Made by a program: the position numbers and the translations under genes. From a virus, in IMG/VR virus record IMGVR_UViG_3300023240_000136, positions 1 through 21,874 of that record: 21,874 bases of DNA. One strand, 5' to 3'. A model generated the notes under the pieces. The model saw only the letters and a program-made list of their open reading frames with translations, ran no database searches and was not told the DNA's origin. Positions 3,468 to 17,260 of the stretch are shown one piece after another; position 1 is the first letter of the stretch, and every line of letters begins with the position of its first letter.

Positions 3468-5597
3468 CTATAGTCTTATGAGCGTTACTAAGGTGCTTTC
3501 GCTTGCTGTTAAATTAAACTCGCTTACGTTGTTGATGTAAAAGTAATCATTAAAGTAGTCTATCCATATTGGTATCGTGCTGTCAAAGTTCTCAATATCA
3601 ACTGTGGTTAGTCTTATAAAGCATTCAACTACTTTTGTTTTTTTCGTTGCGTCATTGAGTAAACTAAATCTTTGGTTTAGCACGTTTTGAAAAAGTATAT
3701 TATTATTGGCCACTTCGTAATTAGCCGCAATAGTAGTGCCTCCAGTAATCTGTAATAGACTAGTAGTAGATCTGTTAAGTTTGACTATCCTAGTTTTAAA
3801 CCCTTCAATCTTAGCATCTGGGTCTAAGTTGTAATTCGTGCCGTCAAATATGTATTTGTTGCCCGTGAAGATTTTAGCCATACTACGCGTGTCATTTAAT
3901 AACGTCAAGTCAATAGCGCACAAAGAGAACGGTGCGGTGTATACTTCGCTTTCCAAGTCTATTGTAGTGTCAGCTATTGAAAATGTTCCGCGTCCGTAAT
4001 TGGTTAAAGCCGATAAGAACGGATCGCTTTCGTCATTCGAATATTGGAAGTAGTTACTTTGAGCGTAGTTGCCTAGCTTAAATGAAACCTTTGGTTTTGT
4101 GCTTAGGTCTAGTTTTTCAGACCAGTCCAACGCGTTCGGCTTGTTATTAACTACGTCATTAACACGAACGAGTTCTATTGTCTTGTTGTATTCATCAACC
4201 TTTGGAAACACGCCCATAACATTGCACGTGTAAAGAAATGCGTTACCTACGTTAATATCTTCAAATGAATCTAAGACATTAACAGTCGAGGGTATAATGG
4301 CATTATCGATTTGCTCAATGTTCATGCTAAAATCTGAAAAACTAAACGACCCTAGATTATCCGTCACCGCTGCGGGCTTGGTTTCAAGTGGACTAAATTC
4401 AATTTCGCTTTCGATCTTCCATACCATCACAAAGTTAGTGGCCGTCCCCGCTATCGATGCCAGAAATCCAGCGTTCAAAACCTCGATGTTAATAGGTATT
4501 GTTGGCGAATATATTTCTTGAGTTAGGTTAGTCGTTCCGTTTTGGTCTATGTAAGTCGCTGTGTAATATTCATATTCAAAGCTAAATGCGATACCATCAA
4601 CGGCTCCCGTAGTCTTGTTGTATACATCCATTTGTATACGCATTATCGCAGATGTAACGAATAGATTTCGATAGAAAGACTGTGGGCTATTTGTTGTAAA
4701 CTGACCGTTTAGATTAAACTCAAACGTAGTCAGTGCTGAATATGTAGACGGAAAGTTATAACCGAAAGTTATATACCCAAGCCCCGTTATTGTCGTGTCT
4801 CGATAAAGCCCGTCCGCGTCTGTAATTACGCTTGGAAAGTTTATCGGTGCTTTAACAATCGAGTTATCAATGTAAACGGATTCCTTAACAGATAGCAATC
4901 CGAAAGGCAAAACACCGTTTATAAATTCATAATCAACAATGTAGTCGTTATTTGTACCTACCACATTCTTAGCGGGTATCGCTAAAGTACTGTACACGTC
5001 ATCCGTCCATAAGTCGCCAATAGTCCTATACCCGATCAGCTCAATAGCCGAATCGATAATGAACTTTAGATAAAGCGATGGCAGAAAAAAGTCGTATCGA
5101 TAAGTCGATGTGTCGGCCTTGTCAAAGAATCCGTAATCAATGTTAGGATATACTATTCCTGTTGACTTGTCACGCAACGCCTCGACTCCCGCAATGCTGT
5201 AGTCATGTGTTAACGGTGTTAGGTAGTCCGCTAAGCTAGTTAAGCTAACCGATTTGATTAGCTGAAAGAAATTACCGTCCCCGCTTTTAATGCTTAGTTG
5301 ATAGTTGTTACCGTCAAAGCCCTCTAACGTGGCTACACCGTGGACCACTTCAGACCCGTCCACGTCAATGATTGCAGTCAGTGACTTGTAAGGTTCGTCA
5401 TTTGTTGAGTTGATTAATTCAGAGACGTTTAATATGTCTCTATTCTTTTGATTGTTGGCTGGGACGTTAAAGATGTTCGAAAAACTAGCCGAACGGATTC
5501 CTAAAGTCAAAAGGTCATACCCTATTACTGAGTATACTATTGGTTCGTTTCCACTTAGGTGGATGCGTTCGCCTTCGATCTTTATGTTCGTGTTCAT
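3468..5597 (-). CDS. Large tail or baseplate structural protein
   Basis: A 709-residue, beta-strand-rich protein with few charged repeats and many Asn, Thr, Ser and Tyr residues, typical of a structural component. Near residues 38-54 it carries SFSNIFNVPANNQKN, which matches a pattern (SFS-F-xP-N) seen in large Bacteroidetes phage tail proteins encoded next to the tape measure. No enzymatic motif is seen. It starts with an ATGA overlap with the 60-residue gene before it and ends 2 bases before the tape measure start, so the three are likely translated together. A distal tail, hub or baseplate role is inferred from position and size. Confidence 0.75.
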   Translation of the reverse strand: MNTNIKIEGERIHLSGNEPIVYSVIGYDLLTLGIRSASFSNIFNVPANNQKNRDILNVSELINSTNDEPYKSLTAIIDVDGSEVVHGVATLEGFDGNNYQLSIKSGDGNFFQLIKSVSLTSLADYLTPLTHDYSIAGVEALRDKSTGIVYPNIDYGFFDKADTSTYRYDFFLPSLYLKFIIDSAIELIGYRTIGDLWTDDVYSTLAIPAKNVVGTNNDYIVDYEFINGVLPFGLLSVKESVYIDNSIVKAPINFPSVITDADGLYRDTTITGLGYITFGYNFPSTYSALTTFEFNLNGQFTTNSPQSFYRNLFVTSAIMRIQMDVYNKTTGAVDGIAFSFEYEYYTATYIDQNGTTNLTQEIYSPTIPINIEVLNAGFLASIAGTATNFVMVWKIESEIEFSPLETKPAAVTDNLGSFSFSDFSMNIEQIDNAIIPSTVNVLDSFEDINVGNAFLYTCNVMGVFPKVDEYNKTIELVRVNDVVNNKPNALDWSEKLDLSTKPKVSFKLGNYAQSNYFQYSNDESDPFLSALTNYGRGTFSIADTTIDLESEVYTAPFSLCAIDLTLLNDTRSMAKIFTGNKYIFDGTNYNLDPDAKIEGFKTRIVKLNRSTTSLLQITGGTTIAANYEVANNNILFQNVLNQRFSLLNDATKKTKVVECFIRLTTVDIENFDSTIPIWIDYFNDYFYINNVSEFNLTASESTLVTLIRL

Positions 5598-12488: not shown

Positions 12489-13121
12489 CTATGAGATTAT
12501 TAATTCAGAATTCACGATTTTCATTGTTTTGTTTTTCATTGTCCTGTACCCAGCAAGAACATAATACTCATAGCCTTGGTATTCTCTTTTAACAACATCC
12601 TCAGCCTTCAAAAAAGGTATCATTAAATCACATCCATAAGGGTTGTCATCTTGTCTCTCTTGCTCCCAATCATTCAAAGGCTCAAACGTGAATGATATGC
12701 AAACATTACTATCACTTAGCCTAAAGTTGCTACATGTAGTAAATTCACGACCTGACAAAAATTGATCATTGAACGCTTGATATTTGGCTATGTTATCATT
12801 CTTTAAATCTGCTGCCTCGCTGTCAATCCTGTCTTTCTCTACCCTTTGAGCCTCCTCAATCTCTATTTGCTCAGGGCTTTTCTTGTAGCTTTCCCAACTT
12901 CTATTTTTGCCCCTTAATGAATCATCAGGAGTAAGATTTTCACAACCAAACCCTTTCGCCTTATCTTGAGCTAAATCTAGCTGCATTGATAAATTTTGCA
13001 TGTAAGTGTAGTTAGTACTGACTCCTGAAATATAGCTTCGCCCATTTATGGTTGCGTAACTGTTTGAATTTTCAACATCCCATAACGTGTAATATTGCTC
13101 TGTAAAACCGATCTGTAACAT
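12489..13121 (-). CDS. Conserved protein of unknown function, YTLWDV family
   Basis: A 210-residue protein beginning MLQIGFTEQYYTLWDVEN, followed by YTYMQNLSMQLDLAQDKAKG and a DDSLRGKNRSWE segment (about 65-76). This three-part layout recurs in proteins of Bacteroidetes plasmids and phages, to my recollection, without a known role. A charged helix (about 82-125) and a C-terminal beta region with repeated Tyr follow. The ATG at 13121 is chosen because the recognised start motif begins there and a 16-bp palindrome sits upstream. A frame from 13166 would place that palindrome inside the gene. It is isolated as a single transcription unit by terminators at both sides. Confidence 0.7.
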   Translation of the reverse strand: MLQIGFTEQYYTLWDVENSNSYATINGRSYISGVSTNYTYMQNLSMQLDLAQDKAKGFGCENLTPDDSLRGKNRSWESYKKSPEQIEIEEAQRVEKDRIDSEAADLKNDNIAKYQAFNDQFLSGREFTTCSNFRLSDSNVCISFTFEPLNDWEQERQDDNPYGCDLMIPFLKAEDVVKREYQGYEYYVLAGYRTMKNKTMKIVNSELIIS

Positions 13122-13135
13122 AGTCTTGTTGTTTT

Positions 13136-13151
13136 GTATATTTAAATATAC
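13136..13151. promoter_or_regulatory. Perfect 16-bp palindrome GTATATTTAAATATAC
   Basis: An exact palindrome 14 bases before the ATG at 13121. Its position in the leader of an isolated gene suggests a binding site for a dimeric regulator. Its high AT content means chance cannot be excluded. Confidence 0.4.
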
Positions 13152-13212
13152 GCAAACACCTGACATTGGTTGCGTTGATTTATACGAGTGGTAGTATTAT
13201 TATACATGCGGT

Positions 13213-13256
13213 AAAAAACCACCCTAGATAGCGTCTTTCCGCTTTGCTTTGGGTGG
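13213..13256 (-). terminator. Probable terminator after the accessory gene block
   Basis: On the minus strand CCACCC (13256-13251) pairs with GGGTGG (13224-13219) and is followed directly by six T residues (13218-13213). The 26-base loop is long and can form extra structure. It would stop transcription coming from 13368-14169. Confidence 0.55.
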
Positions 13257-13313
13257 CTTCGTTACAACTCCGTGACGCTGATAAATGGGATGCGTGGCGG
13301 AGAGTATTTTCAT
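13224..13313 (-). CDS. Possible 29-residue basic protein
   Basis: An ATG frame reading MKILSATHPIYQRHGVV and ending in a Lys/Arg-rich tail (KPPKAKRKDAI), with its stop inside the stem of the following terminator. Composition is protein-like, but the region is also rich in inverted repeats and could instead be a structured RNA. No homologue is recognised. Confidence 0.28.
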   Translation of the reverse strand: MKILSATHPIYQRHGVVTKPPKAKRKDAI

Positions 13314-13367
13314 GACCCGTTAGCTGATCTGACGGGAAGCCAAGCGGGTACGGTTATTCAAATATAT

Positions 13368-15349: not shown

Positions 15350-15908
15350 CTTTCTTTTCTTTTAAGTATTGGTACTTAATTTCATTATACGTAGCGTTTG
15401 AAAATTGGTTGCCTTTTTTATTCAGTTCCTTTTGAGTTTCAATATATTCTTTGCCTTTTCGGTAAAAATCTTCAGCATCAAAATCATTATCTTTTTCGAC
15501 TAGGTTCTGTTTTATCTTTTCGTGATTCTCTTTGGCTTGATACTTCCCATCTAAATATATTTGCATCCATTTTGAAATCAGTTCCAAGTTAAGCTTACCG
15601 TAAGAGTTAACACCGTACACACCTCTTCGGCCTTGCTTAAGGCATTCGATAATATCTTGAATAGATTCGTATTGATACATTTCAATCAAATCTTCGGTGA
15701 TAATCTTAATTGCGCTATCGCTTAGATTGATCTGCATAGCTTCGGACGCTTTGACTATTGCGCTTATTACTTGCGTTTGAACTGTCTTTTCGTTCCCCTC
15801 CCTTATCTGCATTAGCATTGGCTTCGCTTCGAGGTTATAAGCTATCGTAGTCAATGCCGTTGGCTTCCGCGAGTGCGCGCGCTCGATCGCCTTGGTTTCC
15901 TTTTCCAT
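15315..15908 (-). CDS. DUF6633-like protein, possible helicase-loading partner
   Basis: A 197-residue protein whose core SDSAIKIITEDLIEMYQYES and the following QGRRGVYGVNSYGKLNLELISKWMQIYLDG segment resembles the DUF6633 family found after the initiator gene in many Bacteroidetes phages and prophages. The N-terminus is basic and the C-terminal third is Lys/Asp-rich and probably disordered. Its place after an O-like initiator, with a 74-base overlap, parallels lambda P, so recruitment of host DnaB helicase is a reasonable inference. No phage helicase gene is in the window. Confidence 0.65.
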   Translation of the reverse strand: MEKETKAIERAHSRKPTALTTIAYNLEAKPMLMQIREGNEKTVQTQVISAIVKASEAMQINLSDSAIKIITEDLIEMYQYESIQDIIECLKQGRRGVYGVNSYGKLNLELISKWMQIYLDGKYQAKENHEKIKQNLVEKDNDFDAEDFYRKGKEYIETQKELNKKGNQFSNATYNEIKYQYLKEKKDEKNIDNNIPS

Positions 15909-16560
15909 TGTTATCTTTTTGAGTGAAGAACCCTTTCCATCCGTTTGAAATTGATTCGTGAATAATTTTAATAGCAGTTAATTCGGTTGCGTTTGAAAGT
16001 TCGGAAAGTTTAGCTAAAGCCGCTTGTTCGCTTACCTGGCTTTTGTAATTAAATTTATGATCTGCCTTTTTGTATTCCTTCCAAATGTTCCATTGACTAA
16101 AAAATTCATTTGAATCAAAAGGCAAAACTACCTCTTGTTTATTGTTAATTGGTTTATTGTTTATTGTTATTTGTTTATCTATACTATCATTGCTTTCACT
16201 AGTGCTTTCACTTTGCTTTGTACCGTGCTTTATCAATGCTTTATCAAGTGCTTTATCAAGTGCTTTGTTAATATTTGATAGGGCAATGATGTTTGCTGAG
16301 TATTGATTCTTTGACCGTTCAATCATTTCAAATGCACCCCATCGAACTAAGTCGTTAAGGGTATTTATGTAGGTGTTATATGACTTTATTCCTATTGCCT
16401 CCATTGCCATAGTAGTAGGAAAACCAAATTTCTTTTTCCATCCTAAACGGTTGCAATGCTCAATGGCAAAGAAATATAAAGCCGTATGATTTGGCTTGAT
16501 CTTTTCTGGATTTTCAAAGCAGAAGTCAAACCATGATCTTGAGAGTTCGTAACTATTCAT
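15835..16560 (-). CDS. Replication initiator, lambda O-like, with internal origin
   Basis: A 241-residue protein. Residues 1-95 form a winged-helix DNA-binding domain (HTALYFFAIEHCNRLGW, then KSYNTYINTLNDLVRWGAF). Residues 94-141 are a low-complexity linker encoded by the repeat array and AT tract. Residues 145-225 carry the EFFSQWNIWKEYKKADHKFNYK and NGWKGFF sequences typical of initiators in Bacteroidetes phages. It should bind the repeats in its own gene, melt the origin and recruit partners. The ATG at 16560 is chosen since the GTG at 16605 would put translation through the structured leader. It starts the leftward replication operon. Confidence 0.85.
   Translation of the reverse strand: MNSYELSRSWFDFCFENPEKIKPNHTALYFFAIEHCNRLGWKKKFGFPTTMAMEAIGIKSYNTYINTLNDLVRWGAFEMIERSKNQYSANIIALSNINKALDKALDKALIKHGTKQSESTSESNDSIDKQITINNKPINNKQEVVLPFDSNEFFSQWNIWKEYKKADHKFNYKSQVSEQAALAKLSELSNATELTAIKIIHESISNGWKGFFTQKDNNGKGNQGDRARALAEANGIDYDSL
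16137..16272. repeat. Probable replication origin: iterons plus AT-rich tract
   Basis: Seven TGCTTT cores start at 16191, 16203, 16214, 16226, 16237, 16249 and 16261, spaced 11-12 bp, close to one helical turn. The four rightmost extend to the longer unit TGCTTTATCAAG or a close variant. Beside them, 16137-16190 is strongly AT-rich with repeated TTTATTG, a likely melting region. This is the layout of lambdoid origins inside the initiator gene. Confidence 0.75.
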
Positions 16561-16580
16561 GGCATTTATTAAAATAAAAT

Positions 16581-16657
16581 AGGCGTACAAATCCGACCCT
16601 CTCACCTGTCATCATTGTACGCCTACACGTTTCTTTATCGCTCTATACCGTGAGAGG
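16581..16657 (-). promoter_or_regulatory. Structured leader of the initiator mRNA, possible pseudoknot
   Basis: On the minus-strand transcript four arms occur in the order CCTCTCAC (16657-16650), AGGCGTACAA (16624-16615), GTGAGAGG (16605-16598), TTGTACGCCT (16590-16581). Arms 1 and 3 pair over 8 bp and arms 2 and 4 over 10 bp, both perfectly. This interleaved order is that of an H-type pseudoknot, ending 20 bases before the ATG at 16560. It could be a translational operator, attenuator or small riboswitch-like element. Confidence 0.5.
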
Positions 16658-16666
16658 CAGCGAATA

Positions 16667-16697
16667 CAAATATAACCTTTTCCATCGGTTATCTAAA
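16667..16697 (-). promoter_or_regulatory. Leftward promoter of the replication operon
   Basis: On the minus strand TATATTTG (16674 to 16667) matches the TAnnTTTG box exactly. TTTA (16697 to 16694) lies 19 bases upstream as a near match to the -33 TTTG. Transcription would start near 16660, directly before the first arm of the leader structure. An AACCTTTT motif (16674-16681) lies in the spacer. Confidence 0.6.
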
Positions 16698-16832: not shown

Positions 16833-16845
16833 TTCTTTATATTTG
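16815..16845 (+). promoter_or_regulatory. Rightward promoter of the early operon
   Basis: TATATTTG at 16838-16845 matches the Bacteroidetes -7 box, with TTCG (16815-16818) 19 bases upstream as a near match to the -33 TTTG. Transcription would start near 16852 and give a leader of about 150 bases before the ATG at 17003. Confidence 0.6.
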
Positions 16846-16873
16846 GTTGCGGATGTTTACGAGATTAATATCG

Positions 16874-16894
16874 AAAAGGTTACAACCTTTTTTT
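16874..16894 (+). promoter_or_regulatory. Dyad AAAAGGTT/AACCTTTT with T-run
   Basis: AAAAGGTT (16874-16881) and AACCTTTT (16884-16891) form a tight dyad followed by more T residues. As RNA it is a weak terminator-like hairpin about 20 bases after the expected transcription start. As DNA it could be an operator. The AACCTTTT half recurs at 16674-16681 and 16971-16978. Confidence 0.4.
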
Positions 16895-16925
16895 ATTAGG
16901 TGCGTAATAGTAAGGGTGACGTAAG

Positions 16926-16969
16926 CTAAACGGGCGCGCTAGTGCCGTTTAGGTACTGTTATTTTTTTT
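16926..16969 (+). promoter_or_regulatory. Leader hairpin followed by T8
   Basis: CTAAACGG (16926-16933) pairs perfectly with CCGTTTAG (16945-16952) around an 11-base GC-rich loop. Eight T residues follow at 16962-16969 after a 9-base gap. It lies in the untranslated leader of the early operon and could slow or end transcription. Confidence 0.45.
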
Positions 16970-17002
16970 AAACCTTTTCAACTCATTCTCGTAAAGATAG
17001 CT

Positions 17003-17260
17003 ATGAACAATAAAGACAAACGATTCTATTCCGAAAACAGTAGCGTCACCGACAATATAGATTCGTGGCACGATGTTGACTGGATCAGCGAACAAGGCGA
17101 CCGCGACACGTTCGGCCAAGACTGCCAAGACTACACCATTCAAATGCTAGGACGAATCCAAGGCAGTGACGACTGGGTAACTGGGACTGCTACCTTTATC
17201 GAGCACGAAGAAGGCTTCTATCTTGACGAAGTTACCGATATTAAAGAGTATTCAATTTAA
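17003..17260 (+). CDS. First early gene, acidic protein of unknown function
   Basis: An 85-residue, strongly acidic protein (many Asp and Glu, few basic residues after the N-terminus) with Trp residues at DSWHDVDW and DDWVTG. The C-terminal half, TGTATFIEHEEGFYLDEVTD, suggests a small beta domain. It is the first gene of the rightward early operon after a 150-base leader. Small acidic early phage proteins can mimic DNA or block host factors, but I see no specific match, so no function is given. Confidence 0.7.
   Translation: MNNKDKRFYSENSSVTDNIDSWHDVDWISEQGDRDTFGQDCQDYTIQMLGRIQGSDDWVTGTATFIEHEEGFYLDEVTDIKEYSI

Follow-up and report, generated by a model that had tools for sequence, protein, structure and literature searches.

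A covarying kissing-loop leader RNA, a candidate transcription attenuator, ahead of phage replication genes

The window considered here is a stretch of 21,874 nucleotides, positions 1 to 21,874 of virus record IMGVR_UViG_3300023240_000136. Its minus strand carries a gene for an O-like replication initiator, and the leader of that gene contains two perfect inverted repeats, P1 (8 bp) and P2 (11 bp). The features of the leader, in order of transcription, are as follows.

16667..16674, minus strand: -7 promoter element TATATTTG, from the sequence; consensus TAnnTTTG; predicted +1 at about 16662
16659..16663, minus strand: 5' arm of the H1 stem, TCGCT; the helix covaries in sub-group A4, with 98% of cells paired
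16650..16657, minus strand: 5' arm of P1, CCTCTCAC, within the H1 loop; exact repeat, covariation, shuffle test
16638..16642, minus strand: 3' arm of the H1 stem, AGCGA; 5-bp pairing with 16663-16659, covariation
16615..16625, minus strand: 5' arm of P2, the terminator-like stem, TAGGCGTACAA; exact repeat, covariation
16611..16614, minus strand: 5' side of an internal loop, UGAU (UGAA in relatives), opposite GGAU; from alignments
16608..16610, minus strand: 5' arm of the H2 upper stem, GAC; two-sided changes among relatives
16598..16605, minus strand: P1', GTGAGAGG, in the 10-nt apical loop of H2 (the loop being 16607-16598); exact repeat, covariation
16595..16597, minus strand: 3' arm of the H2 upper stem, GTC; covariation
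16591..16594, minus strand: 3' side of the internal loop, GGAU; from alignments
16580..16590, minus strand: 3' arm of P2, TTGTACGCCTA; exact repeat, covariation
16568..16579, minus strand: U-rich tract TTTTATTTTAAT immediately 3' of P2, from the sequence; it also trails H2 in relatives when the scan does not require it
15835..16560, minus strand: replication initiator, O-like, phrog_678; start set by an M1 that is invariant among relatives

In plus-strand numbering, P1 pairs 16598-16605 with 16650-16657 and P2 pairs 16580-16590 with 16615-16625, both without mismatch. On the minus strand the arms follow one another as P1, P2, P1', P2', so that the helices cross. Upstream of both is the -7 box (16674-16667), and downstream the initiator ATG at 16560. 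An earlier, sequence-only reading had placed two perfect interleaved stems of 8 and 10 bp in this part of the initiator mRNA leader. The placement is borne out by the coordinates, and both stems are exact; the length of the first was right, and the second is 11 bp. That reading also held two such arms to be improbable by chance, and none of 3000 dinucleotide shuffles of the leader equals the crossing pair (observed stacking, -36.9 kcal; best shuffle, -31.3 kcal). Nested RNA folding of the leader is unremarkable (z -1.4); it misses the element because the signal resides in the crossing pairs. Three features had gone unnoticed: the 5-bp H1 stem around the P1 5' arm, the GAC/GUC upper stem around the P1' loop, and the U-rich tract at 16579-16568 after P2'.

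The -7 element TAnnTTTG of Flavobacterium johnsoniae has its first T at -12 (PMC6847099). Among 38 relatives of the window leader the start of the -7 box precedes H1 by a median of 12 nt, and H1 therefore begins at about +1. For the window itself a transcription start near 16662 is predicted, upstream of position 16650, as the proposed pairing had been said to need. Between promoter and first gene, then, a stable hairpin is followed directly by a U-tract, the sequence arrangement of an intrinsic terminator or attenuator.

Relatives were sought through the initiator and through the leader. A genome-contig search with the single initiator protein returned none, and a second search with an alignment succeeded. 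A viral-contig scan with the initiator gave 80 loci, among which scoring for crossing helices revealed several leaders with the same topology and different letters; further scans enlarged the locus set beyond these 80. A descriptor was composed of the promoter, the P1 5' arm, a terminator-like hairpin with P1' in its loop, and the U-tract. In a looser form it gave too many false matches, with a null tail to about -29, and a stricter geometry was therefore adopted. The strict descriptor finds 56 distinct elements in 3.4 Mb, 38 of them forming a strong class A; shuffled DNA totalling 28.8 Mb yields 8. On the sense strand, an element lies no more than 2 kb upstream at 36 or more of the 70 distinct initiator loci, and on the antisense strand at none of them; by eye, the element is also present in L013, L035, L061 and L064. 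A scan requiring neither promoter nor U-tract again finds sense-strand elements only (24 loci, and 0 antisense). In most of these the -7 box precedes H1 by 10-14 nt and H2 is followed by a U-rich run; one match, L068, looks like chance.

Two named phages are carriers: in Polaribacter phage Danklef_1 the element lies from 28556 on, ahead of Danklef1_42 and of the initiator Danklef1_43, and in Flavobacterium phage 11b it lies from 33621 on. The leader has no match in a phage DNA similarity search, and the element has none in 10 host genomes; among 199 Flavobacteriaceae genomes, with scoring limited to top candidates, there is one clear match, on a small contig. Two relatives merit separate mention. 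L282, on a contig binned as Maribacter, has two leaders 1.5 kb apart, at 4422 and 5971, with different P1 arms. In L090 (2698-2770) H1 is kept and the upper part and loop of H2 are apparently lost; this natural deletion therefore cannot form the P1 contact.

The two crossing helices had been labelled a possible H-type pseudoknot. That label does not fit the window or 30 of 38 relatives, in whose minimum free energy folds the P1 5' arm itself lies in the loop of H1. In nested folds of the 38 elements H1 forms in 30 and the lower stem of H2 in 35, and the two P1 arms are about 81% and 87% unpaired. Because both arms thus fall mainly in loops, P1 is best read, from these predicted folds, as a kissing interaction between the H1 loop and the apical loop of H2. 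The complementarity of the two hairpin loops falls within the 6-10 nt expected of a kissing-loop RNA, with compensatory changes and a median loop-loop pairing energy of -10 kcal/mol, and in some relatives the H2 loop consists of exactly the P1' letters. A second group of relatives, class B, looks H-type.

The fold was also tested without calling on P1. A covariance model built from five relatives on H1 and H2 only, blind to P1, recovers the window leader at E=3e-7 and picks up L005, a case not seen before, with a promoter that had escaped the descriptor. When P1 was added afterwards to the 11 best matches of this model, two-sided changes appeared in 26 of 28 pairs, 95% of cells held standard pairs and P1 was paired in 92% of cells. 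The covariation score of the 11 is 0.93, against about 0.14 with partners slid by 1-3 columns, in a set of which part, though not L005, had originally been found with P1 as a criterion. Covariation across homologous leaders had been proposed as a check on the pairing; compensatory changes are present, and the fold is real and under selection. Since 25 cells hold G-U and only 4 hold A-C, the sense RNA is the molecule that folds.

The same observations bear on the idea that the repeats serve at the DNA level, as operator or origin sites bound by a repressor or by the initiator, and that the RNA fold is incidental. Inverted repeats near a divergent promoter region and beside an initiator gene would suit such sites. 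However, arm changes are compensated, wobble pairs are strand-specific, and the elements lie on the transcribed strand only, at a fixed distance from the promoter; the DNA-site reading is scarcely credible and is already largely refuted.

The letters of P1 are private to each phage. The 38 elements have 33 different arms, and only 3% of cross pairs between the arms of different phages reach -8 kcal/mol. L011 and L014 differ at 8 of the 14 positions of P1, all of them compensated, and at 5 of 104 unpaired positions. The generalization that P1 is the fastest-evolving part holds for some pairs and not for all groups. Privacy of this kind, and the rewriting of P1 between two leaders that differ by about 5% elsewhere, are what might be expected if the short leader RNA of one phage could pair with the leader of another of its kind and shut off the latter's replication operon in trans, as a form of superinfection immunity or incompatibility. 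The phage P4 CI RNA and plasmid inc RNAs shut replication genes by RNA pairing in trans. By analogy such a role may be imagined here, but we think it very improbable: pairing in cis would hide both loops, P1 does not outpace the other parts in every group, and the element is absent from most integrase-bearing relatives, which would need prophage immunity. No second copy or complement of the loops was found in the phage genomes beyond chance, nor was any trans-acting signal found. The lack of a second partner makes a separate phage antisense RNA unlikely and fits action in cis; no TAnnTTTG is seen on the plus strand where an antisense RNA would start.

In the internal loop of H2, two alternative modules occupy the same place and are possibly protein sites: UGAA/GGAU, with tandem G-A (L137, L130, L008, L076), and the sarcin-ricin-like AGUA/GAA (L048, L034, L246, L240). 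As to a conserved ligand-binding core of the riboswitch kind, sub-group A4 shares the short modules UGAA/GGAU, AUUAUA and AAAGGAAUUAUU, and other relatives are without them. The sequence-only reading had supposed that the leader controls initiator dose through a protein or ligand. Control of dose stays plausible; a ligand is weakly supported, P1 being sequence-free and the short modules recurring within one sub-group. Its other suggestion, that the structure keeps the start site accessible, gives way to transcription termination, to which the hairpin and U-tract point instead. In class A the U-rich run adjoins the hairpin whether the first ORF begins 5 or 51 nt later, in a search of which the U-tract was itself part; this fits a terminator better than a ribosome site, without amounting to proof. 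The U-rich run might serve translation initiation, which in Bacteroidetes is not known to use Shine-Dalgarno pairing, and H2 might have an effect other than to end transcription. In the stretch from the U-tract to the first ATG, AATAGTTTATCGGTATCTTAAAACCG recurs in L037, L038, L035, L032, L060, L234 and L240.

Class B relatives differ from the window element, which belongs to class A and has no conserved leader ORF. Their P1 is longer, H1 is absent, and the leader contains an ORF of 31-33 codons, which begins beyond the P1 5' arm (within 0-2 nt in most families), crosses P1' and P2', and usually stops over the start codon of the next gene. The peptide is unconserved in sequence, and among the 38 class A leaders a single one has an ORF of this kind; the arrangement suggests that in class B it matters whether the leader is translated through. 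ORFs of 31-33 codons that start with MK are found in the leaders of L243, L244, L100, L241, L011, L027, L250 and L067. The window has a possible second leader of class B type, weaker, at 13200-13367 on the minus strand before ORF 12489-13166; it comprises a promoter TATATTTG, P1 TGGCTTC/GAAGCCA, P2 CCGCC/GGTGG, a T-run and a 29-codon ORF, MKILSATHPIYQRHGVVTKPPKAKRKDAI. On the plus strand, 16838-17003 contains a divergent promoter-like TATATTTG and two terminator-like hairpins with T-runs before ORF 17003-17260, and the rightward operon may thus also have an attenuator.

The element heads the replication operon, often 10-30 nt before the first ATG, and the operons behind it encode, as judged by eye from translations, wHTH initiators, including types unlike that of the window, with helicase loaders or a DnaB-like helicase. 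The link between element and initiator arises partly by selection, most loci having been gathered through the initiator; exceptions are L343, phage 11b and the whole-record scans. L343, found in a Flavobacteriaceae genome by the RNA model alone, has the element before a different wHTH protein; its small contig (1-1913) has apparent repeated ends and is either a small circular replicon or an assembly artefact. Across some 1 Mb of larger phage records, most carriers have a single element, and the window's near-identical relative and G003 have two each.

Integrase-bearing records that were scanned contain no convincing element, the lone match, in G044, being AT-rich and chance-like, and prophage-type loci of sequenced bacteria have none near this initiator. 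PF00589 occurs in 1 of 38 element-bearing records, compared with 7 of 12 records that have the same initiator and lack the element (Fisher p about 6e-5; 4e-4 among records of at least 26 kb); since records may be fragments, this is a trend and not a rule. That integrase-bearing relatives mostly lack the element speaks against a role in lysogen immunity.

It is also conceivable that a protein, either the initiator or a host RNA-binding protein, reads the kissing complex by its shape and represses translation or stabilizes termination, in a form of autoregulation. Precedents exist: Rop recognizes the RNAI-RNAII kissing complex whatever its sequence, and T4 gene 32 is autoregulated. Conservation of architecture without conservation of P1 letters would be in keeping with a reader of this kind, as would the recurrence of UGAA/GGAU or AGUA/GAA at one place. 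The initiator itself is an unlikely ligand, however, because the element fronts different wHTH initiators and is missing from most integrase-bearing relatives with the same initiator. By analogy, then, recognition by a protein may account for the element, although we consider this rather unlikely.

A further reading takes the leader to be mainly a gene for a small stable RNA, two hairpins and a terminator, that acts in trans or on the polymerase, the initiator being merely read through. The element is indeed compact, with two hairpins from +1 on and a terminator-like end of its own, is present once or twice per record, and resembles the put RNA of phage HK022 in size and in place near the 5' end of an early transcript; putL, of about 70 nt, forms two stem-loops just downstream of an early promoter (PMC9378689). 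But put acts on the zinc-binding domain of RNA polymerase so that later terminators are passed, and has no need of a U-tract such as that directly after H2. The window element differs in its terminator-like H2, its sequence-free P1 and the phylum of its host. The loops have no complement elsewhere in the phage genome, and the element always heads a replication operon, often just before the first ATG. A small RNA gene is an unlikely account of the leader.

The explanation we favor, and consider probable though far from assured, is that the leader is an RNA attenuator, acting in cis on transcription of the phage replication operon, and that the kiss locks its terminator. Judged by comparison among relatives, the leader has a conserved and covarying fold in the sense of the transcript, a position at +1, a U-tract, one or two copies per record and a link to replication operons. 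Transcription would begin at the base of H1. As the polymerase advances, the loop of the terminator hairpin H2 would emerge and kiss the H1 loop through P1, and the kiss could hold the short upper stem and internal-loop module together and speed or lock formation of the lower stem, P2. The polymerase would then stop at the U-tract and release a short RNA of about 85-100 nt. Were H1 or the kiss unformed or undone, read-through would yield the initiator mRNA, and the share of read-through would set the dose and timing of the initiator and downstream genes. We infer termination at the U-tract, a kiss that favors it, and whatever shifts the balance; the role of the kiss and its direction, for or against termination, are a guess, because the terminator would work without H1.

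No Rfam 15 family matches the window at the gathering threshold, and none matches the leader up to E=5; no description of such an RNA was found in open-licence papers. Among known systems the pT181-type attenuator is the one whose working the element would most resemble, except that a single RNA supplies both sides of the kiss. The pT181 (repC) attenuator likewise lies in the leader of a replication initiator, with a terminator hairpin before the gene, kissing loops and private loop sequences (PMC4878617). There, however, the leader kisses a second, antisense RNA, and the terminator has a competing anti-terminator, whereas here the kiss is within the leader and the first hairpin stands at +1. 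The RepZ leaders of IncI, IncB and IncK plasmids, with leader peptide and pseudoknot, also govern initiator mRNA by long-range loop pairing, but on translation, through an antisense RNAI that kisses stem-loop I (PMC10724649). Class B relatives resemble them in their short leader ORF, the stop of which usually lies over the start codon of the gene behind.

Phage precedents are more distant. T4 gene 32 is a phage replication gene with a pseudoknotted 5' leader; its H-type knot nucleates gp32 binding, acts on translation and has no terminator hairpin. The CI RNA of phage P4 is a leader RNA that ends the transcript of a replication operon early, but it acts in trans in lysogens, and here most integrase-bearing relatives are without the element. 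The RNAs of type III toxin-antitoxin systems, tandem pseudoknot repeats before an endoribonuclease gene, were considered and set aside: the element is a single unit, and the genes downstream encode replication proteins. The element is accordingly filed as a transcription attenuator in kind, a member of neither the pT181 nor the put family.

Because dozens of relatives, mostly without detectable integrase, keep the shape with different letters, the leader is very likely a real and undescribed RNA switch that would limit the amount of replication protein made. A broader proposal is that phages have here a new class of leader RNA, gating replication operons through a sequence-blind, intramolecular kiss between a +1 hairpin and a terminator loop, and that non-integrating Bacteroidetes phages use it, each with private loop letters, where integrating relatives use a repressor; this we offer tentatively, as falling somewhat short of probable. 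Little is known of how Bacteroidetes phages control their genes. This RNA is compact and strongly covarying, matches no Rfam family, and stands mostly once per record in a set position before replication genes; it provides a testable control point for the start of phage replication, and its sequence-free kissing loop would make it a source of many natural attenuators, mutually orthogonal, for work in Flavobacteria.
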